DNA of 64,000 bases from Deltaproteobacteria bacterium (lineage in GTDB: Bacteria; Desulfobacterota; Desulfuromonadia; Desulfuromonadales; BM103): NCBI GenBank assembly GCA_024636215.1, contig JAGXHL010000097.1:11967-75966 (forward strand), in the 5' to 3' direction. Below the pieces are notes generated by a model. The model was not told the origin of the DNA and ran no database searches. It was given only the letters and a program-made list of their open reading frames with translations. Position 1 is the stretch's first letter, and each line of letters opens with the position of its first letter. Made by a program: the position numbers and the translations under genes. Below, one piece after another: positions 14,017-34,811 of this stretch.

Positions 14017-14096
<80 letters not shown>

Positions 14097-14099
14097 TAA

Positions 14100-14307: not shown

Positions 14308-14386
14308 TAATTATTTCGGGCCTGCCTTTTCCCCCGTCAACCCCTCTAATTTTTGTGGCGGTTCTCTAGGGAAAAGCCGGGCCTTA

Positions 14387-14513: not shown

Positions 14514-14610
14514 TTTAAATTCATAAGTTGATTCAAAATTATTGATTAAAATAATTCCGGTTCCTGCGTTTATGTGCAAGATTCCGGGAGAGGACGTGAG
14601 GAGCGAACCT

Positions 14611-16577: not shown

Positions 16578-16662
16578 TCCCTGTTGTTGAAGCGTTTGTG
16601 GCCGGTGGAGTTGTGACCGGCGTGCTTGCGGAAAAGATAAAGTTTTCAAAAGAGGTGAGAGA

Positions 16663-17910: not shown

Positions 17911-17952
17911 TAGAGTTCCTGTCGGGCTTGTGCTCAGCCGGAAGATATTGTT

Positions 17953-20370
17953 ATGACAGAACTCTCAGAAGACTTCCTGCCTGAATCGGCACGACCAGAT
18001 AAATATCCTGTCCTGCCTCTAAGGGACATCGTTATCTTCCCCCATATGGTTACCCCTTTGTTTGTTGGCCGTCCCCGGTCGATTCAGGCTCTGGAATGGG
18101 CCATGGAGCATGAGAAGCTGGTTTTGCTGGTGACTCAGAGAGACCCCAAGACTGACGATCCCCTTGCGGACGACATGTTTGAGATGGGAACCCTGGGGCA
18201 GGTTGTGCAGATGCTCAAGCTCCCGGATGGGACCGTCAAGGTTCTGATTGAAGGTAAGGTCAGGGCGCGCCTTCTCGATCTCCATTATACCGAAGAATGT
18301 ATCTTTAGTTCTTTGCAGGAGTTGCCGGACCAAGAGATTGACTCGCCTGAGCAGGAAGCCCTGATGCGCAGCGTGAACAACACGTTTGAGTCTTATGCCA
18401 ACCTCAGCAAGAAGATTCCGGCGGAGATGGTCACCTCGATCGCCGGCGTCGAAGAACCCGGTCGCTTTGCCGATACCATTGTTGCGCATTTGACCGTGCA
18501 GATTTCGGACAAGCAGGACGTCCTCGAGGAGCTGGACTCCCTGCAGCGACTGGAAAAGCTGCTGGCACTGATGGAGCGTGAGGTCGAGATCCTGCAGATT
18601 GAAAAAAAGATCCGTAATCGTGTTAAAAGCCAGATGGAACGCAGCCAGAAAGAATACTATCTGAATGAGCAGATGCGCGCCATTCAGAAAGAACTCGGCG
18701 AAAAAGACGAGTTTAAGCAAGAGCTGCGTGAGTTGGAAGATAAAATTGCCAAAGCGCGCATGTCGAAAGAGGCGACTGAGAAAGCGACGGCGGAACTCCG
18801 CAAACTCAAAATGATGTCGCCTATGTCCGCAGAGGCCACGGTTGTTCGCAATTACATCGACTGGCTGGTAGCACTGCCATGGAAGAAGGGGACCAAGGAC
18901 CAGATTGATCTGGCCAGGGCGGAAGAGATTCTCGATGAGGATCATTACGGTCTCGAAAAGGTTAAGGAACGGATCCTCGAGTATCTGGCGGTACAGGCTC
19001 TGGTGAAAAAAATCAAGGGGCCTATCCTTTGCCTGGTCGGCCCTCCCGGTGTCGGTAAAACGTCACTCGGTCGTTCCGTGGCCCGCGCCATGGGGCGCAA
19101 GTTTCTGCGTGTTTCTCTCGGCGGCGTTCGTGACGAGGCTGAGATCCGTGGCCATCGCCGTACCTACATTGGCGCTATGCCCGGCAAGGTGATCCAGGGC
19201 TTGCGCAAGGTCGGTATGCGAAATCCGGTCTTCCTCCTCGACGAGGTCGATAAGATGAGTACGGATTTTCGCGGCGACCCCTCCTCGGCCTTGCTGGAGG
19301 TACTTGATCCGGAGCAGAACAACACCTTTGCCGACCATTTCCTCGACGTTGATTATGACCTCTCTTCCGTGATGTTCATTGCTACGGCCAATACACTGCA
19401 TGCGATCCCCGGGCCATTACGTGATCGTATGGAAGTGATCCACGTAGAAGGTTACACCGAAGAAGAGAAGGTCAACATCGCTGAGCGTTACCTGTTGCCC
19501 AAGCAGTTGGAAACCCATGGACTCAAGTCCGAACAGGTCAAGTTTTCCGAAGCCGCCTTGCTGGAGATTGTGCGTCGCTATACCCGGGAGGCAGGTGTGC
19601 GCAATCTCGAACGTGAGATTGCCAATGTCTTTCGCAAAATTGCCCGACAAGTCGTTAAGGCAGGACAGGCCGGCAAGCGCTTTCAGGTTGGTGAACCGCA
19701 GATCAAAAAATACCTTGGTGTGCCCCGTTACAATTACGGGGTGCGCGAAGAAGAGCATGGTGTCGGTCTGGTCAATGGTCTTGCCTGGACCGAGGTTGGG
19801 GGTGAGTTATTGACCATAGAGGTAACCATCTTGCCTGGTCAGGGCAAGCTCACAGTGACCGGTAAACTCGGTGATGTTATGAAGGAGTCGGCCCAGGCCG
19901 CACTCAGTTATGTCCGCTCCCGTTGGCGTGCTCTGGGTCTGGAAGAAGACTTCTATAGCTCTATCGATATCCATATTCACGTGCCCGAGGGAGCCATTCC
20001 CAAGGATGGGCCTTCTGCCGGTATCACCATGGCGGCGGCTCTTGCTTCAGCCTTGACCGGTTTGCCGGTCGATCAGGATCTGGCCATGACGGGTGAAATC
20101 ACCCTGCGTGGTCGTGTTCTGCCTATCGGCGGTTTGAAAGAGAAACTGTTGGCGGCAAAGCGTGCCGGGATCCACCGCATTCTGATTCCTCAGGAGAATG
20201 AAAAAAATCTGCAAGATGTGCCGATGACGATTCGCCGTGCTTTGCAGATAATCCCGGTCGCGCACATGGATAAGGTCCTTGACGAAGCGATTTTGGGAAG
20301 CTTTTCAGTTTCCTCTGCGGCGGACAATGGCGAATACTCGTTAGAGCCTGAAAAATCGGTGCATCATTGA
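17953..20370 (+). CDS. lon: ATP-dependent Lon protease (LonA)
   Basis: 805 aa, the typical LonA size. N-terminal substrate-recognition domain beginning [16 protein letters not shown], a coiled-coil region (about 190-290), an AAA+ module with Walker A GPPGVGKT at about 363-370 and Walker [11 protein letters not shown], and a C-terminal protease with Ser688 in DGPSAG and Lys731 in GGLKEK forming the Ser-Lys dyad. Degrades misfolded and regulatory proteins in the cytoplasm. GGAAG precedes the ATG. No heat-shock promoter is evident in the 42 bp after clpX, so it is probably read through from upstream. hup follows behind its own strong promoter. Confidence 0.98.
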
Positions 20371-20862: not shown

Positions 20863-20939
20863 GGGGCTGTAGTAGAGTCGGTTACAACATCGGCCTGTCA
20901 CGCCGGAGGTCGCGGGTTCGAGTCCCGTCAGCCCCGCCA
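20863..20939 (+). tRNA. tRNA-Asp (anticodon GTC)
   Basis: 77 nt. Acceptor GGGGCTG/CAGCCCC, discriminator G, encoded CCA, anticodon loop CTGTCAC giving GTC at 20897-20899, T arm GCGGG-TTCGAGT-CCCGT. The D stem GTAG/CAAC contains an A-A mismatch (20874/20886) and the anticodon stem opens with a T-G pair. The aspartate identity bases G10, the GTC anticodon and discriminator G73 are kept, so it is probably functional. Confidence 0.93.
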
Positions 20940-20947: not shown

Positions 20948-20981
20948 GAGGCGATCCCTGTTGAGGGGGTCGCCTCTTTTT
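20948..20981 (+). terminator. Rho-independent terminator after tRNA-Asp
   Basis: An 11-bp stem GAGGCGATCCC (20948-20958) with GGGGTCGCCTC (20966-20976), containing one G-T pair, a 7-nt loop, then TTTTT (20977-20981). Confidence 0.88.
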
Positions 20982-20998: not shown

Positions 20999-21027
20999 TT
21001 GACTTTACTGAGGTTTTTTAATATATT
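20999..21027 (+). promoter_or_regulatory. Promoter of the PPIase-NHL-cytochrome operon
   Basis: TTGACT (20999-21004), a 17-bp spacer and TATATT (21022-21027), just past the tRNA terminator. It leaves an untranslated leader of about 70 nt before the TTG start at 21106. I found no riboswitch-like fold (for instance a GEMM c-di-GMP element) in the leader. Confidence 0.6.
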
Positions 21028-21105
21028 CCGAAGTTGGCAATTGATTCGTATAATTAAAGCTATCTGTACCCATTTGCTCTGGGTTAAGTATGAAGGAGAA
21101 CTCTT

Positions 21106-22074
21106 TTGATTTTTTTTCAGCGTCGGATCGTTTCTGTAGTGCTTGTGTTGATGTTTGCATGCTCGACGACTGGCTTTACTGCTGAGCAACTAGAGGCAAG
21201 GTCTGTTGTTGTGGCTAGAGTTGGTAACATAATGATAACGCAAGAGGATATTGAGCGTCGCATGCAAAACCTTATGCCGATGCAGTTAAGCTTTCATGGC
21301 AATGTCAGTGAAGATAAGTTGTCAGAAATAGAACAGTCCGCTCTGGATGAGTTGATAGTTCGAGCTTATAAAATCCAGTATGCAATTGACGAAGAGATTT
21401 CAATAGACTCAGAATCGTTTGAAACACAATGGCAAAAACAACTAAGCAAAAATTCAAAGTTATCAAATCCAGACTGGGCGTCTGAAGCTAGCAAGTTCAG
21501 GGCAGACTACTATCTAAGCGCACTTGCTCGTGAGGCTGAGACTGTCGCTATCGATGAAAGGGTTAATGTTTCTGATAATGAAGTGAGGGATTACTATCTT
21601 GAGCGTAAAGCTTCGTTTTTCCGTCCCAAGTTGTACACTGTCAGCCATGTCTTTATTAAGGTGGACCCTTCCTCCAATAAGGAAGAATTGGAAGTGAAGC
21701 GTTTGAAAGCAGAAGGTATATACAAAAGAGCAATTTCTGGTGAGGACTTCTATAACCTTGCATACTATGAATCGGATGATCGAAGTAAGTATGTTGGTGG
21801 TAGTCTAGGCTCCTTCCACGCGGGTCAAACAATCTCAGAATTTGACGCGGTCATTAATGAAATGCAGCCAGGAGAAATAGTAGGCCCTCTGCGCACGCGT
21901 TTCGGCTTCCATATAGTCAGGCTTGATGATGTTTCTGAAGAGCGTCAGCTTGAATTCGAAGAAGTCTCTGCCCAAATTCGTTCACGACTTAAAGCGACTA
22001 AACGAGATGAGATCTACAACGCATGGCTTACTACAATGAAGGTGAAGTATCCGATTGAGTATTTCAACAAGTGA
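21106..22074 (+). CDS. Exported parvulin-type peptidyl-prolyl isomerase
   Basis: 322 aa from a TTG start with AAGGAG 8 nt upstream; no ATG fits the signal peptide. A hydrophobic leader (about residues 7-20) ends near FACS, giving either a weak lipobox or a cleaved signal. A SurA/PrsA-like N-terminal segment (VVVARVGNIMITQEDIERRM) is followed by one rotamase domain (about 178-285): YTVSHVFIKVD, YYESDDRSKYVGGSLGSF, GEIVGPLRTRFGFHIVRLDD. Likely a periplasmic foldase. It overlaps the NHL gene and heads an operon with two multiheme cytochromes, so it probably assists their maturation or export (inference). Base composition here is visibly AT-richer than in the clp-lon or secretion blocks. Confidence 0.88.
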   Translation: MIFFQRRIVSVVLVLMFACSTTGFTAEQLEARSVVVARVGNIMITQEDIERRMQNLMPMQLSFHGNVSEDKLSEIEQSALDELIVRAYKIQYAIDEEISIDSESFETQWQKQLSKNSKLSNPDWASEASKFRADYYLSALAREAETVAIDERVNVSDNEVRDYYLERKASFFRPKLYTVSHVFIKVDPSSNKEELEVKRLKAEGIYKRAISGEDFYNLAYYESDDRSKYVGGSLGSFHAGQTISEFDAVINEMQPGEIVGPLRTRFGFHIVRLDDVSEERQLEFEEVSAQIRSRLKATKRDEIYNAWLTTMKVKYPIEYFNK

Positions 22075-23141
22075 TGAGGATCAGGGTGTTTAATCTGCTG
22101 TCTTTTTTCATGCTCTTGTTGGTTCTGCTCCTCAGTACTGGTTGTTCAGGGCCGGTCACGCACACCACCTCTTGGCAGGATGAATCGATCGATCTTGTGT
22201 GGCCAGAAGCTCCAGATGTCCCGCGGATTCGATATCTTCGTGACTTGAGTGGCCCAGGGGGCTTTTTAGAAAAACGTCAGAGCACGAGCCTTTTTCGCTG
22301 GATGTTTGGCGAACAAGAATTTGAACTTCCTCTCCTTAGCCCTTTTGCGGTAGCTGTTAGCAATTCTGGGACTGTTTGGATCGCTGATAATGGTGCACGT
22401 AGTCTCCACCGATTGGATGTGGGGCTCGGTAAATCAGAAGTTTTTCGCGAAATTGCTGGAATTCTCCTGGGGGCACCAAGTGGGGTTGCCGTCGATGACG
22501 TTAGAAAAAGGGTTTTTCTTTCTGATTCTAGGCAATCACGTGTATTCGTCCTTAATTCTAAAGGTGAGTATATTGATAGTTGGGGACCAAAGGGAGGTTT
22601 TAAACGTCCTGCTGGATTGGCGCTTGATGCTGCTGGAAGGTTGCTCGTTGCGGATGCTGTATCGGGTGTTGTTTACGTGTTTAGTTCAGACGGAAACGTT
22701 GTTACTGAGATTCGAAGCAAGCTTAATCAAAATGGTTTTTTTTCTCGACCACTTAATGTTGCCGTTGGGCCGAAGGGCGAGGTGTTGATCCTTGACGCAT
22801 TGTCTTTTCGCGTAGAAGTACAAGATGCTCACGGGAACCTGTTGTCCACTTTAGGCAGCCTAGGTGATGCCGCTGGCTTTTTGGCGCGACCGAAGGGGCT
22901 TGCCGTTGATAGTCGTGGACATGTTTTCATATCTGATTCGGCATTTGACAATATACAGGTGTTCGATTTGGCGGGGAACCTGTTGATGTTTTTCGGGGAG
23001 GCAGGTTCCGGGGCCGGTCAGTTTAATCTGCCAGCCGGTCTTTACGTTGATTCTTCTGATCGTTTGTTCGTCGCAGACTCCTATAACCACCGCATTCAGG
23101 TGTTTCAGTTGCTTGAAAATGCCCCATTGGACGTGAATTGA
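22074..23141 (+). CDS. NHL-repeat (six-bladed propeller) lipoprotein
   Basis: 355 aa from the ATG overlapping the PPIase stop (TGATG); a GTG one codon earlier is also possible. The leader ends in the lipobox STGC, so it is lipid-anchored after cleavage at about Cys26. Six or so NHL blades follow, e.g. SPFAVAVSNSGTVWIADNGA, RPAGLALDAAGRLLVADA, RPLNVAVGPKGEVLILD, RPKGLAVDSRGHVFISDS, LPAGLYVDSSDRLFVADSYN. This is a repeat scaffold without catalytic residues. As I recall, PPIase and NHL genes also lie beside the omcS/omcT filament cytochrome genes of Geobacter sulfurreducens, so it may help to export or organise cytochromes at the outer membrane (inference). Confidence 0.87.
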   Translation: MRIRVFNLLSFFMLLLVLLLSTGCSGPVTHTTSWQDESIDLVWPEAPDVPRIRYLRDLSGPGGFLEKRQSTSLFRWMFGEQEFELPLLSPFAVAVSNSGTVWIADNGARSLHRLDVGLGKSEVFREIAGILLGAPSGVAVDDVRKRVFLSDSRQSRVFVLNSKGEYIDSWGPKGGFKRPAGLALDAAGRLLVADAVSGVVYVFSSDGNVVTEIRSKLNQNGFFSRPLNVAVGPKGEVLILDALSFRVEVQDAHGNLLSTLGSLGDAAGFLARPKGLAVDSRGHVFISDSAFDNIQVFDLAGNLLMFFGEAGSGAGQFNLPAGLYVDSSDRLFVADSYNHRIQVFQLLENAPLDVN

Positions 23142-23248
23142 GTGTTAACTTCATGTCAGATGGCTTGTTTATTGCAATAGTTCAGGGTTCCGTACTGTTT
23201 TTACTTGTCTTGCATTAATTTATATTTCAATAGGTGTATCGATTGATC

Positions 23249-24046
23249 ATGTTACGAGTTAAAATTTATTTTGTCGGTTTTTTTCTTTGGTTTTTCAGTG
23301 TAGTTTTGTTGCCAGCCGTGAGTTTCGCTGTGCCTCTTACTGATACCTCTAACCCACATAATATGTCGAGTAGTGCAACTCACAGCAGTCCCAAGGCACA
23401 GCCTGTTGCCGGTGGAGGTACCGATCAAATTTGTGTTTTTTGCCATACCCCTCATTCAGCAACGCCCGCTTCAACATTATGGAGCCGGCCAGATCCCAGC
23501 ACAGCTTCTTTCCCACTTTATGCAAACGATCTGGTTATTAAAGGGCAGTTAGGGGCTCCGGCTGGTGCCCAGAATCGCAGTCAATATAAAGATGATGGCA
23601 GTGTTGCCTACCCTAACGGTGCCTCGCGTATGTGTCTTTCCTGCCACGATGGGGTAACAGCTATTGGTATCCTTCAGGACAATACTTCTATCGCTATGGT
23701 TGGTGGTCAAAATCTTGTCACAGGGCAGGCTGTTATTGATCTTTCAAGCTCACATCCTATTTCTTTTGTTTATGACAATGCTGTGCTTGCAGATATCGTG
23801 TCCGTGAGAGGGGCCACGTATCAGTTGCCATCATTGGCTGATGATATTGATACACCGCTTGATGGAAACGACAGGATGCAGTGTACCACTTGTCATGACC
23901 CGCATGAGGATACACGCGCAGAGACTGCTCCTGAAAATTTACCTTTCTGGCGCAATACTGTTATTGTTGGTACGACCCTTTATGATGATGTCTGTAACTC
24001 ATGCCATGTGGGAGCAACGCCTGGAACTCCACCTCACCTCCCGTAA
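23249..24046 (+). CDS. Exported tetraheme c-type cytochrome
   Basis: 265 aa from ATG 23249 (a GTG at 23234 would add five residues). Signal peptide ends VSFA near residue 27. Four CXXCH sites: 62-66 (CVFCH), 129-133 (CLSCH), 212-216 (CTTCH), 249-253 (CNSCH). The spacing and landmarks (NPHNMS before the first heme, CVFCHTPH, LSSSHPISF midway, CTTCHDPHE) match a widespread deltaproteobacterial extracellular multiheme family, and the extra His residues are candidate distal ligands. Small tetraheme cytochromes of this size include filament-forming types such as OmcE; assignment to that class is a hypothesis. Located 107 bp after the NHL gene and 14 bp before the octaheme gene. Confidence 0.85.
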   Translation: MLRVKIYFVGFFLWFFSVVLLPAVSFAVPLTDTSNPHNMSSSATHSSPKAQPVAGGGTDQICVFCHTPHSATPASTLWSRPDPSTASFPLYANDLVIKGQLGAPAGAQNRSQYKDDGSVAYPNGASRMCLSCHDGVTAIGILQDNTSIAMVGGQNLVTGQAVIDLSSSHPISFVYDNAVLADIVSVRGATYQLPSLADDIDTPLDGNDRMQCTTCHDPHEDTRAETAPENLPFWRNTVIVGTTLYDDVCNSCHVGATPGTPPHLP

Positions 24047-24060
24047 GGATACGAGAGATT

Positions 24061-25179
24061 ATGAATAGCAGTCTTTCGCACAGGTCATTGAAGCTCCTTC
24101 TGTTTATTGCGGCATTCCTTTTGATTTCATCTTTCTCCGTGTTAGCGAGACAAGAGGGTTTACTCAGCGGAAGCCACGGTAATGCTTCTGTGATGGCAAA
24201 GAGTTGTCGTGCATGCCATCGTGGAATGACTATGGCGTTGAGTGGTGAGGAGAGTGCCTGTTTGTCATGTCATGGGGACGCCATTGCCAGGCAAAGCATG
24301 ATTCAGAATGGTTACTTGAGTCTTGATGGAGGAGGTTCTCTTTATGATGTGGCAAGTGACTTACGTAAACCTTACAACCACCCAGTATTGACCATTCAGG
24401 GTGTGCATAGACAACAAGAACGCTTGCCTGAAGAGGTTGCTAATGCCGCGCGCCATTCAGAATGCGTGGATTGTCACGATCCGCATCTCTCTGAAAAAAA
24501 CAACCCTTTTCGTGGCTTGAAAGGGCGTCGCGTTGGCAATCTGATCACTGATATCGAAAACGAATACGAGTTGTGTTATCGCTGTCATTCTGAAAGTGCG
24601 AATATGCCAGGAGGGTTTTCTGACAAACATGGGGAATTTAAAGCTAGTAACCCATCTTTTCATCCAGTCGAGGAGGAAGGGAAAAACACAAACGTCGTCA
24701 GTCTTAAAGATCCTTATGTCGCGCAAAAAGAAAAGCCAAACCAGGTTTCGCGGATAAGTTGTAGTGATTGTCACGGAAGCGACGATCCTAATGGTGCTAA
24801 AGGCCCCCATGGCTCGAATAATAAAGGGCTTTTATCTCTGAACTACCAGCAGGAAGATGGTAGCTTGGAGAGTGAGCAGGCTTATTCCCTTTGCTATAAA
24901 TGCCATTCGCGTGCAAGTATTTTGTCTGATGAAAGTTTTGCGTATCATTCTCTGCATATTCAAGGCCGGATGGGGAGCTTGGGTGGAGGGACTTCATGTT
25001 TTACTTGCCACGATGCCCACGGCAGCAGCCAGTATCCGCACCTGATCAAATTTAACCAGGATGTTGTCTTTGAAAACGCCCTTGGCGATCTAAACTACAA
25101 GGCTCAAGGCTTTACGGCCCGGCATGGCTCTTGCTCTCTGAACTGCCATGGGGTTGAGCATGTGGATCAAGAGTATTGA
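24061..25179 (+). CDS. Exported octaheme c-type cytochrome with one CX3CH site
   Basis: 372 aa from ATG 24061; the frame is open further upstream but that would overlap the tetraheme gene. Signal peptide ends near LAR, residue 30. Seven CXXCH sites at 49-53, 67-71, 135-139, 172-176, 234-238, 278-282 and 313-317, plus an eighth, CSLNCH (358-363), with three residues between the cysteines. Many free His residues lie in conserved-looking contexts (YNHPVL, DPHLS, KGPHG, DAHGSS), suggesting bis-His ligation. Probably a periplasmic or outer-surface electron carrier acting with the tetraheme protein. Last gene of the operon; a terminator follows. Confidence 0.87.
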   Translation: MNSSLSHRSLKLLLFIAAFLLISSFSVLARQEGLLSGSHGNASVMAKSCRACHRGMTMALSGEESACLSCHGDAIARQSMIQNGYLSLDGGGSLYDVASDLRKPYNHPVLTIQGVHRQQERLPEEVANAARHSECVDCHDPHLSEKNNPFRGLKGRRVGNLITDIENEYELCYRCHSESANMPGGFSDKHGEFKASNPSFHPVEEEGKNTNVVSLKDPYVAQKEKPNQVSRISCSDCHGSDDPNGAKGPHGSNNKGLLSLNYQQEDGSLESEQAYSLCYKCHSRASILSDESFAYHSLHIQGRMGSLGGGTSCFTCHDAHGSSQYPHLIKFNQDVVFENALGDLNYKAQGFTARHGSCSLNCHGVEHVDQEY

Positions 25180-25206
25180 TGGCGGCAAATTTGTCCCGAT
25201 GTCGAG

Positions 25207-25236
25207 TGGCCGGTTTTTTACCGGCCATTTTTCTTT
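25207..25236 (+). terminator. Terminator of the cytochrome operon
   Basis: Perfect 8-bp stem TGGCCGGT (25207-25214) / ACCGGCCA (25220-25227), a 5-T loop, then TTTTTCTTTT. Confidence 0.92.
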
Positions 25237-25303: not shown

Positions 25304-26509
25304 ATGTCAACCTATCGCTGTAAAATAGGAACCTCTGATGGCCGGGTCCTCGAGAAGGAGTTCGAGGCGGAAAGTCGTGCGGATCTTCAGGCGAATCTCG
25401 AGGAGCAGGGCTTTTTCGTCTTCAAAATCCGCAAGTCTTCTCTGCAATGGCTGCGCAGAAGTGCTGGTGGCGGGGGCTTAAGCGGCCGTCGTTTCCTTGG
25501 TTTAAACCAGGAAATGCTGGTCCTGATCCGCTCAGGTTTGCCGATTCTGCAGGTCCTCGACACGCTGGTTGATCGCATGGAGCCCGGGGGGCTTCTCAAC
25601 ACCCTGCAGGATATTCGTAGCGACGTCAAAGGCGGCAACTCTTTGTCTGACGCCTTCGAACGTTTCCCGAAAATGTTCCCTCAACTCTATGTTGCTTCGT
25701 TACGAGCCGGGGAACAGTCGGGCGATTTGCCGGTTACCCTGGCGCGTTATATCGAATATCAGAAACGTGTCGAGGCGATCAAGGCCAAGGTTCGCAGTGC
25801 GACTTTTTATCCGATCCTGTTGGGGATTGCGGTGACAGTCGTCCTGGCGTTTCTTATGTTGTACGTGATCCCGAGCTTCACCCAGGTCTATGCTGATGCA
25901 AACGTGCAATTGCCTCTTCTGACCCGATTGGTCATCGCCCTGGCCAATGGCATGGTTTCAGGTCTGCCGGTCTGGCTGCCGGCTCTGTTGGTTGCCCTCT
26001 TTCTGGCAAGAGCTTATGTGCATACCGATAGCGGGGCCCTCCAGGCCGATCGTATCAAGCTGAAATTGCCCTTTTTCGGTGAGCTGTTGAATGAATATGC
26101 TCTTTCGACATTCTGTCGAACCTTCGCGACAACGCTTGCCAGCGGCATTCCGATTGTTCAGGCGATGCAGATGTCACGTGCGACCTTGAATAATCGCGTC
26201 CTTGAAACACGCCTCTCCGCGGCGATCAATCGCATCCACGAGGGCTCAAGGATTTCTGAAGCCCTTGAACAGACAGGCAGTTTTCCAATTATTGCCTTAC
26301 GCATGATCGGTGTAGGTGAGACCAGTGGCTCGCTCGTGGATATGCTTACGGATGTCTCCGAATATTATGAGGACGAAGTCGAGCGGCGTCTCGACCGCCT
26401 GACGACCATGGTCGAACCTTTGATGATGATGACCATGGGGCTCTTGATCGGCGGGATTGTGGTTGCCATGTACATCCCGATTTTCCAACTGGCAGGTACA
26501 GTAAACTAG
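25304..26509 (+). CDS. gspF: Type II secretion / type IV pilus inner-membrane platform protein (GspF/PilC family)
   Basis: 401 aa. Two T2SSF domains, each ending in membrane helices: spans near residues 165-190 and 215-240 and a final span near 370-395 (LMMMTMGLLIGGIVVAMYIP). Typical signatures LRAGEQSGDLPVTLARYIEYQ and VGETSGSLVDMLTDVSEYYE occur once per half. The protein connects the secretion ATPase to pseudopilus assembly. First gene of the secretion operon, about 70 bp downstream of the cytochrome terminator. No strong ribosome site. Length matches the family. Confidence 0.93.
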   Translation: MSTYRCKIGTSDGRVLEKEFEAESRADLQANLEEQGFFVFKIRKSSLQWLRRSAGGGGLSGRRFLGLNQEMLVLIRSGLPILQVLDTLVDRMEPGGLLNTLQDIRSDVKGGNSLSDAFERFPKMFPQLYVASLRAGEQSGDLPVTLARYIEYQKRVEAIKAKVRSATFYPILLGIAVTVVLAFLMLYVIPSFTQVYADANVQLPLLTRLVIALANGMVSGLPVWLPALLVALFLARAYVHTDSGALQADRIKLKLPFFGELLNEYALSTFCRTFATTLASGIPIVQAMQMSRATLNNRVLETRLSAAINRIHEGSRISEALEQTGSFPIIALRMIGVGETSGSLVDMLTDVSEYYEDEVERRLDRLTTMVEPLMMMTMGLLIGGIVVAMYIPIFQLAGTVN

Positions 26510-26623
26510 TGGCCTGTTATCTAATTCAAGTGAGTGTAACGTCACAGATGGTCGTTTATCGCCTTGCACTGCTTGGCTCTGAAGACAACATTTGACGCAT
26601 GACAGGACACCAGGACTTTGAAT

Positions 26624-28357
26624 ATGCCGTTTGAACATCGCAAAATAGGTGAAATCCTGATTGAGATGGGGGCCCTTGCCCCGGCTGAAGCGCGCCTTGT
26701 TGTCGAACATCAAAGGGAATCGAGGGCTCGCTTCGGTGAAACGGCAATTGCTCACGGGTTACTTTCCGATGCGCTTGTCGCCCAGGCTCTTGCCCAACAA
26801 TTCGGTCTCGAATACGTTGAGCTGGATAGTGTCATCCCGGACCCGGAGTTGAACGAGAGTTTACCGCCTGACTTGCCCATGCGTTACAATTTTATTCCTT
26901 TGCAGAAAACCGAAGAGGGGCTGGTGATCGCTATCGCCGACCCCACCAACGTTGCCGAGCTTGATGATCTGGAGATGCAGCTTGATATGCAGCTCATCTG
27001 TCAGGTTGCGTCCCGGGACAAGCTTGTCGCCCGCCTTGAGAAGAACCAGGACTCAAAACAGGTTCTGCAGGAAGTCTCGGAAGATTTCAAGCTGCAGCTG
27101 GTCAAGGAGACCGACAAGGGTGAAGAAGTCCTGTCGATTGAAAAACTGACCGATGACAGCAGTCCGATCATCCGACTGATCGATTCAACCCTGTTTGACG
27201 CCCTGAAAAAACGTGCCAGTGATATTCATATTGAGAGCAGTCCCGATGGTGTGCAGATCAAGTATCGGGTTGATGGTGTGTTGTTTCGTGCCACGGAACC
27301 TCTGGACGGTCGCTTTCAGGGGCCGATCATCTCGCGCATCAAGGTTATGAGTGACCTCGATATCTCCGAACGGCGCATCCCCCAGGACGGTCGATTCAAG
27401 GTGCGCATGGCGGGTAAGTCGATCGACTTTCGTGTCTCTATCATGCCGAGTATTTTTGGAGAGGATGCCGTCATTCGTATCCTCGATAAAGAAAGTATCG
27501 CCAAGGATCTGCACGGTTTGACCCTTGATGTCCTCGGCATAGAAGGGCATGAACTGGCCCGCTTCCGGCGCATGATTCGTGAGCCTTATGGCATGGTGCT
27601 GGTTACCGGTCCAACCGGTAGCGGCAAGACGACCACGCTCTATGCGGCTTTGACAGAGATTTTTAACGAACAGGAAAAGATCATCACCATTGAAGATCCT
27701 GTCGAATACCAGCTCAAAGGGGTGGTCCAGATTCCGGTCAACGAGAAAAAAGGCCTGACCTTTGCCCGTGGTTTGCGCTCTATCCTGCGTCACGACCCTG
27801 ACAAGATTATGGTCGGTGAGATTCGTGACCCGGAAACAGCTCAGATCGCTGTGCAGTCGGCTCTTACCGGCCATCTGGTCTTCACGACTGTGCATGCGAA
27901 CAACGTCTTTGATGTCCTGGGCCGTTTCCTGCATATGGGGATTGACGCTTATAACTTTGTCTCCAGCTTAAATTGTGTCGCCGCGCAGCGGTTGATTCGT
28001 AAAATCTGTGTCCACTGCAAACGAACCGTTACTTATGAACGTGAGGACTTTGTCGCCTCCGGTCTTGATTATGATAAGCTCAAGGATCATACCTTCTATG
28101 AAGGTGCGGGTTGCAAGGAGTGCAATGGCCAGGGCTATCATGGACGTACGGCCATTCTGGAACTCCTTGATCTGGATGACAACCTGCGCGATCTGATTAT
28201 CAACAAGGCCTCGGTGAGTCGCCTCAAGGCAGCGGCACGCGCTGCCGGAACGTCGTTCTTGCGCGATTCCGCAATAGAGAAATTGCTAAAAGGGGAGACG
28301 ACGCTGGCTGAAATCAACCGGGTCACCTTCGTTGAAAAGGCGGGGGGCGAATCATGA
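26624..28357 (+). CDS. gspE: Type II secretion / pilus assembly ATPase (GspE/PilB family)
   Basis: 577 aa from ATG 26624, with AGGA 8 nt upstream; a TTG at 26618 is too close to that site. N-terminal MshEN-type domain (KIGEILIEMGALAPAEA, then VAQALAQQFGLEYVELD), which in relatives can bind c-di-GMP. Then N2E and the AAA+ motor: Walker A GPTGSGKT at 329-336, Asp box IIRLIDSTLFDALKKRASDIHIE, His box LTGHLVFTTVHANN. A zinc knuckle is formed by Cys462, Cys465, Cys497 and Cys500. It powers pseudopilin polymerisation. The stop overlaps the next gene (ATGA). Confidence 0.93.
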   Translation: MPFEHRKIGEILIEMGALAPAEARLVVEHQRESRARFGETAIAHGLLSDALVAQALAQQFGLEYVELDSVIPDPELNESLPPDLPMRYNFIPLQKTEEGLVIAIADPTNVAELDDLEMQLDMQLICQVASRDKLVARLEKNQDSKQVLQEVSEDFKLQLVKETDKGEEVLSIEKLTDDSSPIIRLIDSTLFDALKKRASDIHIESSPDGVQIKYRVDGVLFRATEPLDGRFQGPIISRIKVMSDLDISERRIPQDGRFKVRMAGKSIDFRVSIMPSIFGEDAVIRILDKESIAKDLHGLTLDVLGIEGHELARFRRMIREPYGMVLVTGPTGSGKTTTLYAALTEIFNEQEKIITIEDPVEYQLKGVVQIPVNEKKGLTFARGLRSILRHDPDKIMVGEIRDPETAQIAVQSALTGHLVFTTVHANNVFDVLGRFLHMGIDAYNFVSSLNCVAAQRLIRKICVHCKRTVTYEREDFVASGLDYDKLKDHTFYEGAGCKECNGQGYHGRTAILELLDLDDNLRDLIINKASVSRLKAAARAAGTSFLRDSAIEKLLKGETTLAEINRVTFVEKAGGES

Positions 28358-29262
28358 GCAGGTTATTTGTCGGGGTCGACATCCAGCCTGGCGGGCTTTA
28401 CCTCGCGGCTCTCGAACGAAACCGACGCCATACACGTCTGACCGGCTTGCGTTTTGAGAGCCTGGAAGGGGTTCTGGATGTTTCCAGCAGGCAACCGAAT
28501 ATTCGTGATGCCAGGCGCTTTGTTGAAGGCTTGCGACGTGGGGTTGATGCTCTGGCCGGCAAGGAGGAGCGGATCGCCTTGAGTTTGCCTGATCGCGCTG
28601 GCCGCATCTATCTCACCGACGTTGACGCGCCATTTAAAACCCATCAGGAAGGTGTTGATATCCTCAAGTGGAGGCTGAAAGGCCATTTGCCGGCACCGCC
28701 GGGGCAGGTCAAGCTTGATTACCAGGTACTTGAGAAGCGTGATGACGGGCGGCAAAGATGTGTGGTTGCTGCCATGACTTTACCGGTTCTTGAACAATAC
28801 GAAGATCTCGTCAATGAAGCCAATCGGCATGCGATTCAGATCGACTTTCATTCTTTGAATCTCTACAACTACTATCGTCCGCGTCTCGATCTTGGCGGTG
28901 AATTCATCCTGGTTGGTATGGAAACAGGCCTGTTGAGCATTCAATACGTGATCGGGCACAGCCTCTGTTATCAGCGGGTACGGGAATTCAAGGGCGATTC
29001 ACAAAAGGCTTTTCGGGAAATCCATCGAACTCTTGTCGAGGCTTATGAGTCTTTTCCGGCCATGAAACGTTGTGCTATCTTTGCCCACGTTGATCCCGAT
29101 ATGGACGATGAGATTAACGCACTGCTCTCTTCTGCCTTTGAACGTGAAGTCAAGTGTCTTGACCCTGGCCTGAAGCGCTTCGCGGGTGAGGGGAAAACGG
29201 GTGGTTTACAGCCTGTGGGTTCTGTTCTTGCCGCTTTGGGCGCGGCAGAACGTATGATGTGA
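28354..29262 (+). CDS. PilM/GspL-like actin-fold assembly protein
   Basis: 302 aa, cytoplasmic, with an actin-like fold: FVGVDIQPGGLYLAALE at the N-terminus resembles the phosphate-1 loop, IALSLPDRAGRIYLTDVDAP and FILVGMETGLLSIQYV the later strands. In type IV pilus and GspL/M systems this protein couples the ATPase to the PilN/PilO pair. No membrane span, so PilM-like rather than full GspL. Overlaps gspE and the PilN-like gene by 4 nt each, implying translational coupling. Divergent enough that a specific symbol is not warranted. Confidence 0.82.
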   Translation: MSRLFVGVDIQPGGLYLAALERNRRHTRLTGLRFESLEGVLDVSSRQPNIRDARRFVEGLRRGVDALAGKEERIALSLPDRAGRIYLTDVDAPFKTHQEGVDILKWRLKGHLPAPPGQVKLDYQVLEKRDDGRQRCVVAAMTLPVLEQYEDLVNEANRHAIQIDFHSLNLYNYYRPRLDLGGEFILVGMETGLLSIQYVIGHSLCYQRVREFKGDSQKAFREIHRTLVEAYESFPAMKRCAIFAHVDPDMDDEINALLSSAFEREVKCLDPGLKRFAGEGKTGGLQPVGSVLAALGAAERMM

Positions 29263-29822
29263 CGACAATGGAAATTAAACTTAATCTTGCCAGTAAACCC
29301 TATCTGAATCGGCAGAGTGTTCGCCGTTGGATCTCCTTTGCCTGCACCATCGTAGTCTTGTTGCTGCTGTTTAACGTTTATTACCTTTACCAGAACTATC
29401 GGCAATTAAGCCTGCTCGATGACCTTTTTGCGGAGCTTGAGACCCAGGTTGCAAGTGTGCCCGGTGCCCCGGCGACATACTCGACAAGCAATCATGCTGC
29501 TGCAAAAGAGCAGCTTGTCGCTGCAAATGAGTTGGTGTCTGCAGATCAGTTTCGATGGACACATCTGCTGAGCCGGTTTGAAGAGCTTGTCCCAATGGAT
29601 GTGAGCCTCCGCTCAATCCGACCCGATTTCAAGCAAAGTACTGTCCATTTAACCTGTACTGCTCGAGATGTTTCGGCTATGACTAGGTTTATCGACAACC
29701 TGCTCGAGTCGGATGACCTTAATCAGGCTTATCTTGAGAATCATGCCGAGATTGAGATGCAGTCGAATGGCAGAAGTCAGATCCTGACAGGCTTTTCATT
29801 GCAGATTCGGGAGGCCTTCTGA
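29259..29822 (+). CDS. PilN-like inner-membrane assembly protein
   Basis: 187 aa from a GTG overlapping the previous stop (ATG 29268 is an alternative). Short cytoplasmic MEIKLNLASKPYLNR, the classic PilN N-terminus that docks on PilM; a membrane span at about residues 26-48; then a coiled periplasmic region and a ferredoxin-like fold including LLSRFEELVPMDVSLRSIRPD. Pairs with the PilO-like product. Confidence 0.85.
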   Translation: MTTMEIKLNLASKPYLNRQSVRRWISFACTIVVLLLLFNVYYLYQNYRQLSLLDDLFAELETQVASVPGAPATYSTSNHAAAKEQLVAANELVSADQFRWTHLLSRFEELVPMDVSLRSIRPDFKQSTVHLTCTARDVSAMTRFIDNLLESDDLNQAYLENHAEIEMQSNGRSQILTGFSLQIREAF

Positions 29823-30394
29823 TGCGGATCAAAGAACTCCTCAAACTGCTCTGGAGTGCTCATCGCGTCTTTCTGCTTGTGCTCGGCGCTTTGCTGTGCC
29901 TGAATATTTTCCTCTTCGTTTTACTCGGCCAGTTTATTGTGCCTGAAGTCGTTGAAGAGGAGACGCGTTATCTCAAACGACAGACGGAAGTTCGGCAGCT
30001 CCTTCGTAACCAGGGTGGCGCTGCAGAGACGCCTGAACAACGTTATGTCCTTGCCAGTCAGGACCTTGCCAGGTTCGAGCAGGCCATGCCGGAATATCGT
30101 GATTTTACTGCTTTGATTGAGGAGCTGCTGGTTCTTTCCAACCGGGCAGGCTTGAATATCACCCAGATAAGCTATACTTCTGAAGGCTTTAAAGTGGCTG
30201 CACTACTGAAACTCAGCTTGAATTTTAATGTTGAGGGAAACTATGAACAGCTCAAAAAGTTTATCTACTCTCTGGAACAATCAACTCGTCTGATCTCGAT
30301 CAAGCAGCTCAGTCTGCAGAGTGTGGAAGGTGACGCGGTCAAGCTCGGTTTGAATCTCGAGACACTCTTCAGGTCGGGGAGTCGTGAGTCATGA
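29822..30394 (+). CDS. PilO-like inner-membrane assembly protein
   Basis: 190 aa, ATG overlapping the PilN-like stop (TGATG). Membrane span at about residues 15-38, coiled-coil (about 40-80), then a ferredoxin-like periplasmic domain with the PilO-type LIEELLVLSNRAGLNITQIS and NFNVEGNYEQLKKFIYSLEQ. Heterodimer partner of PilN; anchors the PilP-like protein. The stop overlaps the next start by 4 nt. Confidence 0.85.
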   Translation: MRIKELLKLLWSAHRVFLLVLGALLCLNIFLFVLLGQFIVPEVVEEETRYLKRQTEVRQLLRNQGGAAETPEQRYVLASQDLARFEQAMPEYRDFTALIEELLVLSNRAGLNITQISYTSEGFKVAALLKLSLNFNVEGNYEQLKKFIYSLEQSTRLISIKQLSLQSVEGDAVKLGLNLETLFRSGSRES

Positions 30395-31374
30395 ATCGCA
30401 AACGCATGGTCCTGGCGGCCTTGTTGGGTATCCTGGCGCTCTGCCTGATTTACGCCTATCTGGCAACACCGAGGCTCGAAAAAGCCCCGCCGAGGAGTGC
30501 AAGTCCACGCGCTCGCCAAGCGCAAGCGCTTGACAACTTGTCGAAAGACCAGCAAAGCAGGTTTTCTCAAGAGCGTATTGATTTTGCATTCCTCGAAGCG
30601 GATATTAAGGATTTCCCCGGTGCAGCGCGTGACGTGTTCCGGTTCGGTCAACGGCGACCACCGGTGGTTGCTGCCGTGAAGAGACCGCAAGTGCAACAGC
30701 CTGTCATTGTTGCGCCTCCTCCTCCTGTGGTAGAGATGGTGCCAATCGAGGTTGTTCAAAAAGCCTTGTCGCAGTTTACTTTCCTTGGCTTCCTTGATAA
30801 GGAGGGAGAAAAGACGGTTTTCCTCTCCAGCCAAGGCAGCCTGTTTCTCGCCAAACAAGGTGAAAAATTTGGTACCGATTTGGAATTTACTGTCGTGGAT
30901 ATCAGTGGAGATCTTTTACAGGTTCGTCATAGTGGTCGCGAAGGTTTGATCGAGATTCCATTGATTGAACAACAGAAATTAAGCGCTTCAGTGAGCGCGC
31001 CGGCTCGCTTGGCTCCGTCGGCTCCGATCAGTTTGCCGCGGGCCAAAAGTTTTAATCGGAGAATTTTACGTCCTGAAACACCTCAGGAAAGTGAAACCGA
31101 TTTCCCCGAGACGATTGAAGAGAACAACCCTGTAATTGATGAGAACAACCCTTTAACTGATGAGAACAACCCTTTAACTGATGAGAACAACCCTGTTATT
31201 GAAGAGAACAACCCTGTTATTGAAGAGAACAACCCTGTTATTGAAGAGAACAACCCTTTAACTGATGAGAACAACCCTGTTATTGAAGAGAACTACCCCG
31301 AGGGAGCATCTGAGGATGACTTACCTGTTGAAGGGGATGATGTAGAGGGAGAAACCAATGGCTCGAATCAATAA
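30391..31374 (+). CDS. PilP/GspC-like connector protein with C-terminal heptapeptide repeats
   Basis: 327 aa. N-terminal membrane anchor (about residues 7-26), a Pro-rich periplasmic linker, then a small HR/PilP-like beta domain (about 130-200: FTFLGFLDKEGEKTVFLSS, FGTDLEFTVVDISGDLLQVRH) of the kind that links the inner-membrane complex to the secretin. Residues 243-304 are eight exact 7-residue repeats plus a degenerate ninth, consensus [ED]ENNP[VL][IT], and the tail is acidic. The repeat tail is not part of any PilP or GspC I know. It overlaps the secretin gene by 17 nt. Confidence 0.72.
   Translation: MNRKRMVLAALLGILALCLIYAYLATPRLEKAPPRSASPRARQAQALDNLSKDQQSRFSQERIDFAFLEADIKDFPGAARDVFRFGQRRPPVVAAVKRPQVQQPVIVAPPPPVVEMVPIEVVQKALSQFTFLGFLDKEGEKTVFLSSQGSLFLAKQGEKFGTDLEFTVVDISGDLLQVRHSGREGLIEIPLIEQQKLSASVSAPARLAPSAPISLPRAKSFNRRILRPETPQESETDFPETIEENNPVIDENNPLTDENNPLTDENNPVIEENNPVIEENNPVIEENNPLTDENNPVIEENYPEGASEDDLPVEGDDVEGETNGSNQ
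31117..31302 (+). repeat. In-frame 21-bp coding minisatellite (eight units plus one degenerate)
   Basis: Units start at 31117, 31138, 31159, 31180, 31201, 31222, 31243 and 31264; a degraded ninth spans 31285-31302. All share GAGAACAACCCT at the core and alternate between GTTATT- and TTAACT-type ends. Because the period is 21 bp, gain or loss of units keeps the frame. Confidence 0.95.
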
Positions 31375-33904
31375 GGTCCGCTTTGTCGGCTGGGCGCTCG
31401 TGTTACTCGCCGCTCTTCAGGTGAGTGGTTGTTCCGCATACCTGCAAGCAAAACATGCGAGGTCGGCTTTTGAAGAAGCTGAACAGTTCGCTGCTGAAGA
31501 AAATTTTGATCTGGCGATTGTCAAATATAGCGAAGCGGTGAAGCTGGAACCCGCCAGTAAAACCTATAAGCTGAAGCTGGTTTCTGCCCAGACTCGGGCC
31601 GCCGCGACCCATGTCAGAAAAGCGCGTGCCCTGGCCAATGAAGGCAAATATGCTGCGGCGGTGGAAGAATATCGTATCGCAAAAAGCTTTGATCCGAGTG
31701 TGGAAGTCGCGTCTCAGGAAGAACAGGAGATCCTTGATCTTCTCGAAGCCGAAAGGCTCGCGGAAGAAGCTGCAAAATTATGGGGGAAAAGAAACCTTCT
31801 GCCGGCCAGAAAGGCCATTGATGGCGCTTTGAAACTGAATCCGCAGAATGTCCGGGCTTTGGCGATTAAAGACCTTCTCGATCGAGACCAGAAGAAAGTT
31901 GCCATGGACGGCATTGATCTGGATGTGGCGTCTGAAGAACCCATCACCTTGAGTTTCAAAGATGCCAACATCAAGGAAGTTTTTGCTATCCTGTCAAAAT
32001 TGAGCGGCATTAACTTTATCTTTGACGAAGAGATCCGCAACCAGACAATTTCCGTGCTTCTGGAAAAGGCCAGCTTCCTTCAGGCGATGGAACTGATCAT
32101 GCAGATGAACGGGCTGGACAAGAAAGTGCTCAACAGCAAGACGATTATTATTTATCCGCAATCCCGCGAGAAAGACAAACAGTACGGTGACCAGATAATC
32201 CAAACCTTCTACCTGTCACATATCGATGCTAAAAAAGCGGTCAACATGCTGCGCACCATGCTGCAACTGCGCAAAATATTCGTCCACGAAGAGCGCAATG
32301 CCCTGGTTATCAGAGATACGCCGCAGGTTATACGCCTGGCCGAACAGATTCTGTCTGCTGCCGATCGCTCGGATTCCGAAGTACTCTTCGATGTCGAAGT
32401 GCTTTCGGTCAGGGATACTGAAAACCTGACTTTCGGGCCTAAGCTCAGCCAGTACAGTACCACCGTTGGTTTTGGTGCAACAGGAGAGGAGGGTGTTGCA
32501 ACTATTTCCTCACCATTAGTCACAGGGAGTCTCAGCGGGCTGGAGACCTTCTATACTGTTCCCTCCGCCGCTTTCGATTATGCGAAGAGCTTGAGTACGA
32601 CAGAGCTGCTGGCGAGTCCTAAAATCCGGGTCAAGAACAATGAGAAAGCGAAAGTCCATATCGGTAAACGCGACCCGGTCGTGACGACCTCCGGCAGTAC
32701 AACCAGCGAAGGTTTTACCTCTCAGACTGTCCAGTATGTAGACTCCGGCATCAAGCTCGATATTGAACCAACCATACAGCTCGATGGCAGCGTCTTGACC
32801 AAGATAAAACTGGAGGTCAGTACGGCGGAAAGACTCGATGTTGATGATAAAACGGGTGAATCACCGATTGCACTGACAACAACCAATGCAGAAACCGCCC
32901 TGGTGTTGCTTGATGGCGCGCGCACCATCCTTGGCGGCTTGTATGAATCAAACAACACCAACAACAAAACGACCTTGCCTTTTATCGGCGATATCCCGCT
33001 TATCGGCAGTCTGTTTACAAACTTTTCAGATACTGAGGAGAAGCGTGAAATCATCCTGTCTATCACGCCATACATCATCAAGAAAGTCGAAGTTCCAGAC
33101 CTCGATGTTGCAACAATCTGGTCCGGTGGTGAAGATGATCTGAAAGACGGACCTAATTTTGGTGCTTTTGCTCAAAACCTGATGAGTGAAGTCGAGGCGA
33201 CCAAGCCTCAGAGTGCCCCTGCGAGCGAACCCCTGCAGTCTGAAAAGCCTGCTGATGCTGTGACGACAGTAGAAGACGTTTCGCAGGCTGTTGATAGCCC
33301 TGAGGCAACCGAAGGCGCAGCGATCGAAGAAACGGCTGGCTTAGGCGACCCGTCTCCGGTCAAGGGTGAAGGACCGACGGCAACAGAAGTAATCCCGACA
33401 GAAGCAGTGCCGACAGAAGCAGTGTCGTCAGAAGTGATTGCAGAACCTCAGGACGTGGTCCCGCCCCTTGTTCTCGAGATGCCAGACACAGGCTTAACCT
33501 CTTTACAATTTGAGGCACCGGCCGGCGTTGAAAAGGGTCAGGAATTCTCTGTCGCCTTAGAGGTTAAAGATGTTGAAAACCTTTACAGTGCGCCACTTTT
33601 CATTAAATATGATCCGGCGCTTCTTGAACTGATCAATCTCAACGAAGGATCCTTCCTCAAGCAGGATGGCCAGTCCACGGTTTTCTCCAGCAGCCCCAAC
33701 CGCACGACGGGACAGATCATTGTCGGCTACAAACAGGGCACCGGAGGCAAAGGGGCTTCAGGGTCGGGAGTTCTGTTTAATCTGAACTTCAAGGCGCTTG
33801 CCGAGGGTGAAACAACCCTGGAAGTCAATCGTGTCAATTTCCGTAACCCGGAAGGTGCCCGGCTGCAGGTTGCTCCTGAAGCGGTCACGATTGAGATACG
33901 TTGA
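31358..33904 (+). CDS. gspD: Secretin lipoprotein (GspD/PilQ-like) with TPR and C-terminal cohesin domain
   Basis: 848 aa, AGGGAG before the ATG. Lipobox VSGC near residue 25, so it is targeted as a lipoprotein. A TPR-like region (about 35-170) is followed by a secretin N domain (ITLSFKDANIKEVFAILSKL, about 195-215) and N1-type repeats. The secretin barrel (about 400-575) has LLASPKIRVKNNEKAKVHIG and the terminal TLPFIGDIPLIGSLFTN signature. A Glu/Ala/Thr linker with TEAVP-type repeats (about 600-705) leads to a cohesin-like beta-sandwich (about 710-848: ALEVKDVENLYSAPLFIKYDP, LLELINLNEGSFL, GSGVLFNLNFKALAEGETTL). It forms the outer-membrane pore. Its stop overlaps the pseudopilin start. Confidence 0.92.
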   Translation: MARINKVRFVGWALVLLAALQVSGCSAYLQAKHARSAFEEAEQFAAEENFDLAIVKYSEAVKLEPASKTYKLKLVSAQTRAAATHVRKARALANEGKYAAAVEEYRIAKSFDPSVEVASQEEQEILDLLEAERLAEEAAKLWGKRNLLPARKAIDGALKLNPQNVRALAIKDLLDRDQKKVAMDGIDLDVASEEPITLSFKDANIKEVFAILSKLSGINFIFDEEIRNQTISVLLEKASFLQAMELIMQMNGLDKKVLNSKTIIIYPQSREKDKQYGDQIIQTFYLSHIDAKKAVNMLRTMLQLRKIFVHEERNALVIRDTPQVIRLAEQILSAADRSDSEVLFDVEVLSVRDTENLTFGPKLSQYSTTVGFGATGEEGVATISSPLVTGSLSGLETFYTVPSAAFDYAKSLSTTELLASPKIRVKNNEKAKVHIGKRDPVVTTSGSTTSEGFTSQTVQYVDSGIKLDIEPTIQLDGSVLTKIKLEVSTAERLDVDDKTGESPIALTTTNAETALVLLDGARTILGGLYESNNTNNKTTLPFIGDIPLIGSLFTNFSDTEEKREIILSITPYIIKKVEVPDLDVATIWSGGEDDLKDGPNFGAFAQNLMSEVEATKPQSAPASEPLQSEKPADAVTTVEDVSQAVDSPEATEGAAIEETAGLGDPSPVKGEGPTATEVIPTEAVPTEAVSSEVIAEPQDVVPPLVLEMPDTGLTSLQFEAPAGVEKGQEFSVALEVKDVENLYSAPLFIKYDPALLELINLNEGSFLKQDGQSTVFSSSPNRTTGQIIVGYKQGTGGKGASGSGVLFNLNFKALAEGETTLEVNRVNFRNPEGARLQVAPEAVTIEIR

Positions 33905-34398
33905 GTCTGTTGCGTTACATAGCAAAGGCTGAAAGGCAACGTGGCCTGACTCTTCTGGAGATGATTATCGCTCTGGCAATTCTGGCTGTGCTTGCCACGG
34001 TGGTTGTGCCTATGGCTGAAGTCACGGCGATACGGGGCAAAGAGTTGGAACTGAGGCGTTCCTTGCGTGAAATCCGTACCGCTATCGACCATTACAAAGC
34101 TGATTACGATAGAGCCGTGGTCGAAAAAAAGATTATCGCCTCGATCGATGAAACCGGTTATCCAGAGGATCTCGAATCCCTTGTTGAAGGCGATGACTGG
34201 GGAGGTCTCTATCCTTATAAACGCAAATACCTGAGGCGTTTGCCTGCAGACCCCTTTGATGAGTATGATGAGGGGTGGGGGTTGCGTTCCTATGAGGATG
34301 ACCCGGATTCGACTTTTTATAGTGGTAACGATATTTACGATGTTTATTCCCAGAGCCAGCGCTCGGCACTGGATGGGACGCCTTACAACACCTGGTGA
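33901..34398 (+). CDS. Type II secretion pseudopilin 1 (GspG/OxpG-like)
   Basis: 165 aa from a TTG start that overlaps the secretin stop (TTGA). Prepilin peptidase site RG|LTLLE at about residues 14-19 with Glu at +5, followed by a hydrophobic helix (MIIALAILAVLATVVVPMAE). The globular part has the G-type landmarks LPADPFDEYDEGWGLRSYED and SALDGTPYNTW at the C-terminus. Polymerises into the pseudopilus that pushes substrates through the secretin. No prepilin peptidase gene is in the window. Confidence 0.9.
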   Translation: MSLLRYIAKAERQRGLTLLEMIIALAILAVLATVVVPMAEVTAIRGKELELRRSLREIRTAIDHYKADYDRAVVEKKIIASIDETGYPEDLESLVEGDDWGGLYPYKRKYLRRLPADPFDEYDEGWGLRSYEDDPDSTFYSGNDIYDVYSQSQRSALDGTPYNTW

Positions 34399-34811
34399 AC
34401 AGTATGAGCTTGCAAGATAGAAAAAGATCACAGCGAGGTTTTACCCTGATCGAGTTGCTGATCGTCATGAGCATAATCGGTATCCTGGCCAGTATCGTTG
34501 TGCCGAACTATCAGCGTAACCTGATCAAAGCCCGTGAAGCTGTCCTGATGGAAGACCTCCACCAGATGCGCCGTGCCATCGATGCCTATTTCGCAGACCA
34601 TATCAGCTACCCCGAGTCGCTTGAGGACCTGGTCGCAAGCAAATACCTGCGTGCCGTACCCCGCGATCCTTTTACCCAGTCGACCGAAACTTGGGAAGAA
34701 GTTGCGCCAACCCCTTCTCTTGAGGGAGAGTTTGCCGAGGGAGGGCTTGAAGACGTGCATAGCGGCAGTGACCTGATCGGCCTGAATGGTATCCCTTACC
34801 GGGATTGGTAG
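34395..34811 (+). CDS. Type II secretion pseudopilin 2 (GspG-like)
   Basis: 138 aa from a GTG overlapping the preceding stop (ATG 34404 is an alternative). Prepilin cleavage site RG|FTLIE, hydrophobic helix LLIVMSIIGILASIVVPNYQ, then MEDLHQMRRAIDAYFADH, LRAVPRDPFTQ and the C-terminal GLNGIPYRDW. Paralogue of pseudopilin 1. Two G-like pseudopilins and no H/I/J/K set make this a reduced, atypical system. Last gene of the secretion operon. Confidence 0.9.
   Translation: MNSMSLQDRKRSQRGFTLIELLIVMSIIGILASIVVPNYQRNLIKAREAVLMEDLHQMRRAIDAYFADHISYPESLEDLVASKYLRAVPRDPFTQSTETWEEVAPTPSLEGEFAEGGLEDVHSGSDLIGLNGIPYRDW

Follow-up and report, generated by a model that had tools for sequence, protein, structure and literature searches.

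The 64,000-nt contig stretch of a Deltaproteobacteria bacterium analysed here (the window; all coordinates are window positions) carries four collinear genes on the plus strand, spanning 21106-25179 in the list of open reading frames (ORFs). They encode a peptidyl-prolyl isomerase (PPIase), an NHL protein, a tetraheme and an octaheme cytochrome. On balance, we consider it probable that this operon specifies a two-chain dodecaheme cytochrome of extracellular electron transfer, whose nearest named relative is UetJ, with the PPIase and the NHL protein as helpers and with export probably carried out by the adjacent secretion machine. The gene content, the kinship with OmcE, the existence of fused forms elsewhere and the conserved linkage are the established part of this reading. 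We infer that the two chains bind each other, and likewise what the NHL protein and the PPIase do, by which route export proceeds and which way the electrons flow.

21106..22074 (+), PPIase of parvulin type, exported, SurA-like domain at the N-terminus; 322 aa, TTG start; Pfam Rotamase/SurA_N
22071..23141 (+), NHL beta-propeller protein, probable lipoprotein; 356 aa; Pfam NHL; signal sequence ends LSTGC
23249..24046 (+), OmcE-family cytochrome with four hemes, signal peptide judged by eye; 265 aa, or 270 aa from a GTG start at 23234
24061..25179 (+), octaheme cytochrome, a signal peptide of its own judged by eye; 372 aa, or 392 aa from the start at 24001 in the ORF list

An exported parvulin, an NHL lipoprotein and cytochromes of 265 and 372 aa had been described in a first-pass annotation made from the letters, and the ORFs, Pfam matches and heme motifs agree with this description. 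The NHL reading frame starts within the end of the PPIase gene, overlapping its stop. The NHL protein does not match the strict lipobox pattern; the looser Prosite pattern would presumably admit its LSTGC.

The tetraheme chain and its kinship with OmcE

The tetraheme protein contains four CXXCH motifs, at 23432, 23633, 23882 and 23993, and Paired_CXXCH_1 is the Pfam family found on the operon cytochromes. Four distal histidines for the four hemes, with codons at 23357, 23453, 23753 and 23903, are conserved across the tetraheme family (35 sequences; His37 in at least 90%, with one row truncated), a count that would suit ligation within the chain as well as ligation of a neighbour. The top PDB sequence match is OmcE (7tfs, E 2.7e-20), followed by 9YUQ (7.3e-12). 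An AlphaFold2 (AF2) model of low confidence (pLDDT 64.1) returns 7tfs as its only PDB fold match. The first-pass annotation had proposed a comparison with OmcS and OmcZ as well; among PDB sequences, neither cytochrome matches these at E values up to 10.

A quick tree of 150 rows groups the split tetrahemes of Desulfuromonadales (99) with the N-terminal domains of fused proteins (88) and places OmcE with free tetrahemes (92). In a careful tree of 58 chosen rows, the split tetrahemes form a clade (100/99), and the OmcE/UetA clade (100/96) excludes the window tetraheme. The tetraheme of locus L049, whose Uet-like gene content is described below, groups with OmcE in both trees. Judged by its sequence, the window tetraheme is a relative of OmcE and not the OmcE gene itself.

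Fused relatives with twelve heme motifs

With the tetraheme alignment, 80 loci were fetched among the matches listed (at least 80 exist). In 59 of them the OmcE-like domain lies inside an ORF of at least 11 heme motifs. These amount to 60 ORFs; 53 of them have 12 motifs and the other 7 have 11, and by record title they spread over many phyla. The window octaheme is matched by 59 of the 60, at 100 bits or more in 56 and lower in 3, and by one not at all. It contains seven CXXCH motifs and one C-terminal CX3CH (25132), and the fused examples that were read carry 11 CXXCH and a terminal CX3CH, the exact sum of the window pair (4 + 7 + 1). An NHL gene lies no more than 300 nt upstream of the tetraheme domain in 53/59 fused and 16/20 unfused loci, several of the misses being contig ends.

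The split form in Desulfuromonadales

The linkage of the separate genes was followed in 48 distinct split-type genomes (Desulfuromonadales/Geobacteraceae). The tetraheme gene lies directly upstream of the octaheme gene in all 45 genomes with room. NHL precedes the tetraheme gene in 44 of 48, including all 14 with at least 1500 nt upstream, and a PPIase is present in 7 of the 10 with at least 3500 nt upstream. GspF follows the octaheme gene directly in 40 of the 45 with room. The linkage that had been proposed for comparison across Desulfuromonadales is therefore conserved for NHL, tetraheme and octaheme, with the PPIase usually included. In the order to which the close relative G002 belongs, the octaheme finds a match in 68 of 136 genomes, weaker matches included. 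We read 49 genomes as split (E <= 2.5e-90), and 14 have frames of 567-682 aa (E 7e-45 to 1.3e-23), with one genome holding both forms. In the family of G009 (Geobacter sp.), the source of loci L012, L014 and L015, a match occurs in 36 of 48 genomes, and 14 of these have the split form (E <= 1.7e-98). By these matches, the split form is common in Desulfuromonadales and tied to secretion genes.

A second OmcE-family match occurs in 43 of 49 split-type genomes; G004, G014, G015, G074, G083 and G140 showed none, some of these genomes being fragmented. Fourteen OmcE-type regions from 11 genomes, picked among the better matches, were read. In twelve of them, the OmcE-type gene is accompanied by NHL, by further multiheme genes and by a protein of 740-795 aa that ends in Phe in 12 of 12 regions; the two tested had no Pfam match. 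Outer-membrane barrels often end in Phe. No PPIase match was found in the 14 regions. This locus recurs (L137, L138, L140-L147, L149, L150) with cytochromes of 5-25 hemes, NHL genes, the barrel-like protein and some rearrangement. Genome G141 has the 9yuq protein in its OmcE-type locus L137 (tree distance 0 from L115 to 9yuq) and a split pair as well. The two differing regions are L139, with an orphan tetraheme, and L148 (G054:C1:598000-617000, 6063-19001). In L148, an OmcE-family tetraheme is flanked on one side by an NHL protein of 1006 aa and on the other by an ORF of 2629 aa that has 49 heme motifs and is cut by the end of the stretch.

These distributions bear on the first-pass view of the tetraheme protein as the polymerising subunit. 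The tetraheme chain alone would then polymerise as an OmcE-like nanowire, assisted by the PPIase and the NHL protein, and the octaheme would be a separate surface cytochrome or the terminus of the wire. We consider this unlikely. The window tetraheme falls outside the OmcE/UetA clade, its domain is fused to further hemes rather than free in the 59 of 80 loci, and a further OmcE-family match turns up in the 43 of 49 split-type genomes, often in a locus with NHL and the barrel-like protein. That the tetraheme is a filament subunit is doubtful, and for the predicted two-piece protein a role as connector or end piece of a wire is likelier than that of the wire proper.

Proposed docking of the two chains and heme ligation

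In the two-chain dodecaheme reading, the tetraheme chain would supply the OmcE-fold N-terminal third of the cytochrome and the octaheme chain the remainder. After Sec export and heme attachment, the chains most likely dock end to end and form one continuous heme chain. The PPIase would act as a periplasmic folding helper. The NHL lipoprotein, a conserved partner, probably holds the cytochrome at the outer membrane, and the type II secretion-like machine encoded next door probably carries the folded cytochrome across it.

Heme ligands were assigned by counting and by analogy. In the 53 twelve-motif sequences, 14 distal histidines are kept at 98% or more for 12 hemes. The 41 split octahemes share nine histidines in all sequences and two more at 95%, for 8 hemes. 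One of the invariant residues is the N-terminal His39 (codon 24175), present in 37/37 window-type octahemes and in the 4/4 other split cases; its column is empty of it in the fused proteins. These possess a histidine between hemes 4 and 5 in 53 of the 53 used, which has no counterpart in split octahemes. This pattern is as expected if a ligand in cis gave way to a ligand in trans. The N-terminal His16 of OmcS serves as ligand to a heme in the following subunit (PMC13319180), and OmcE is said to share such cross-subunit ligation (PMC12954529, PMC9473688). By analogy, His39 of the octaheme may cross to the last heme of the tetraheme.

If His39 does cross, His37 of the tetraheme would be left free, and the pair could, speculatively, dock onto an OmcE-type filament at its open end. 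The two-chain reading would then be refined to make the pair the cap or anchor of OmcE-type nanowires, with the octaheme standing in for the next subunit via His39 and the tetraheme plugging into the filament through His37. The equivalent of His37 is kept in 98% of the 53 fused proteins, although 14 distal histidines are conserved there for 12 hemes. The invariance of His39 in split octahemes and its absence from that column in fused ones point the same way, as do the interface-spanning His16 of OmcS and the position in the OmcE clade of the L049 tetraheme, which is clustered with an 11-heme protein. The assignment by counting and analogy, the separate locus of the OmcE-type gene in window-type genomes and the 6 of 49 split-type genomes (some fragmented) that showed no second OmcE-family match speak against it, and we hold this refinement to be possible but rather unlikely.

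Nearest named relative and points of weakness

The gene list given for the Uet cluster of Gallionella in PMC10734462 comprises UetJ (11-12 motifs), the tetraheme UetA, the PPIase UetB, the porin UetC, the trihemes UetDEG and the NHL proteins UetHI; UetJ and uetABCDEFGHIJ are also named in PMC13386937 and PMC12575090. Our comparison covers this list and the loci L049 and L077. In locus L049, one run of genes encodes a tetraheme, a PPIase and a protein of 581 aa that has no Pfam match, followed by trihemes and then by NHL and an ORF with 11 hemes; this content matches the list. The Gallionella locus L077 has a tetraheme-like gene and an 11-heme gene. Both 11-heme ORFs start with an OmcE-like head, at 94-97 bits. 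PCC3 was considered as a relative and set aside, as Uet fits the neighbouring genes better.

Several observations weigh against a two-chain dodecaheme cytochrome related to UetJ. Against the window octaheme, the body of the 11-heme ORF scores only 44.7 bits in L049 and gives no match in L077 (Gallionella), and within the 64-kb window no porin or triheme gene stands beside the operon. The 58-row tree places the fused N-terminal domains between the split and the OmcE/UetA clades and does not decide whether the split clade nests among them (58/79). The AF2 model of the octaheme is poor (pLDDT 57.1), and its PDB fold search gave one meaningless match. The CHxxH histidine of heme 5, kept in fused proteins, is lost in 37/37 window-type octahemes, so the ligand sets have shifted. 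GspF is absent next door in 5 of 45 genomes, and a terminator separates the octaheme gene from the secretion operon. Finally, L139 (9157-9963, genome G027) is an orphan window-type tetraheme that is 71% identical to the window protein in the columns of the tree and has neither an NHL nor an octaheme match in its vicinity; a window-type tetraheme may thus act alone. With the weak match of the 11-heme bodies, UetJ is the nearest named relative of the window pair in a loose sense. By sequence, the pair is better called a split member of the twelve-motif fused family, of which UetJ is perhaps a divergent member or a cousin.

The lack of a porin beside the operon would also suit a periplasmic or outer-membrane redox module unrelated to wires, which might, for example, store electrons or supply them to the adjacent secretion system or to soluble acceptors. 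Source names of octaheme relatives include cytochrome c3 family and ammonia-forming nitrite reductase. A weak resemblance to the DmsE-type family is seen for both cytochromes, and one to NrfB for the octaheme. The matches to these families remain far below the curated cut-offs, and the strong OmcE kinship and the genomic context make such a module improbable in our view. Apart from the operon, a single ORF in the window contains more than one heme motif: it encodes a small c7/class III-type cytochrome with three hemes, whose N-terminus is signal-like (57856-58164, minus strand), about 33 kb away.

Transcription signals and genomic neighbourhood

20948..20976 (+), Rho-independent terminator of the upstream tRNA-Asp unit; fold z -5.7, parts the tRNA unit from the operon
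20999..21027 (+), promoter-like site TTGACT-17-TATATT, candidate only; 10/12 matches
25204..25230 (+), Rho-independent terminator behind the octaheme gene; -18.6 kcal/mol, z -4.7
25304..34808 (+), type II secretion-like operon with GspF, a GspE/PilB-type ATPase with MshEN, PilM/N/O-like proteins, a secretin and two prepilins

The operon has a GC content of 0.46 against 0.521 for the window, and the lowest value of 240 overlapping 4-kb stretches is found for the one beginning at 21001, the AT-richest 4 kb of the window. Together with the genes at 21106-25179 and the strong terminator at 25204-25230, this bears out the four-gene set in AT-rich DNA of the first-pass annotation, which had also proposed one promoter and one terminator. 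The terminator stands; the promoter is a candidate only, as the site at 20999-21027, the top of the scan, is one of six in the region, where 6.4 +/- 2.4 are expected by chance. Since promoter-like sites do not exceed chance and a gap of 92-107 nt precedes the tetraheme gene, a single transcript of the four genes is likely rather than certain. Among leader RNA elements, only tRNAs reached Rfam gathering scores. The operon had been called self-contained, which is right in part, as a type II secretion-like operon adjoins it and this adjacency is mostly conserved.

Upstream lie genes for HU, Lon (named by eye), ClpX, ClpP and trigger factor. The tRNA spot (20863-20939) has one tRNA-Asp in the window and Asp-Val-Asp in 12 of the 14 loci of relatives scanned, the exceptions being L006 with one Asp and L010 with none. 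It looks as if the Val and one Asp copy had been lost between repeats in the window. We rejected a horizontally acquired island at tRNA-Asp as the main story, because the order ClpX-Lon-HU-tRNA(s)-operon-secretion is common to relatives. Nor do the final 16-32 nt of the tRNA recur as an exact repeat anywhere else in the window. Low GC is weakened as a sign of import, as the operon lies below both flanks in 8 of 10 relatives measured, mostly by a small margin.

The secretion operon, followed by ftsE and ftsX, contains the type II secretion/type IV pilus set of GspE, GspF, secretin and prepilins, which missed the NCBIfam equivalog cut-offs. Its secretin (31358-33904) combines a lipobox-like motif with a C-terminal cohesin domain, a combination new to us. 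Elsewhere in the window (6151-12937), two adjacent large ORFs of 738 aa (without Pfam match) and 696 aa (LVIVD repeats) lie near a TonB-dependent receptor on the opposite strand.

Implications for nanowires and electron uptake

For the question of how cytochrome nanowires start, anchor and link to the cell, an OmcE-fold protein that is fused or linked to an octaheme, to NHL and to a secretion operon represents a concrete candidate. In its furthest form, the split pair would be the end fitting of OmcE-type nanowires: the OmcE-fold piece donates its N-terminal histidine to the filament, the octaheme locks the other side and the type II-like machine delivers the pair. We regard this proposal as unlikely on present evidence. 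If true, Uet would be a nanowire pathway with UetA as its wire and the OmcE-headed 11- or 12-heme protein as its fitting.

The operon joins two literatures, on OmcE nanowires and on Uet electron uptake. We did not meet this connection in the portions of the open-licence literature available; the one review with both words has omcE only in a reference title, as far as its accessible text goes. The parts of the operon are ordinary and conserved. What looks new, against the accessible portions of open-licence papers, is the identity of the pair as a dodecaheme cytochrome that is split and has a head of OmcE fold; this statement does not extend to all that is in print.

Comparison with known systems

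With OmcE of Geobacter sulfurreducens (PDB 7TFS), the window tetraheme shares the order of heme motifs and the four distal histidines. It differs in belonging to a separate clade and in being linked to the octaheme gene in 45/45 genomes with room, one orphan apart, while OmcE-type genes occupy another locus, with NHL and the barrel-like protein in 12 of the 14 regions read. For the adjacent operon, a possible counterpart is OxpG of G. sulfurreducens, an atypical type II secretion system with pseudopilin-type genes and a link to Fe(III) oxide reduction.

The UetJ/Uet cluster of Ca. Tenderia and Gallionella shares with the window operon the large number of hemes, the OmcE-like N-terminal part and a PPIase in the cluster, UetB being the counterpart in role of the window PPIase. 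An NHL gene lies directly upstream, as in L049 and in the window. In contrast to Uet, the window distributes the hemes over two polypeptides and adjoins a secretion operon instead. The twelve-motif fused cytochromes (e.g. L030, L019, L072) display, like the window pair, an OmcE-like head, an octaheme-like body, a terminal CX3CH and an NHL gene upstream. They consist of one polypeptide, whereas the window has two ORFs with separate stops, and they carry a linker histidine where split octahemes have the N-terminal His39.

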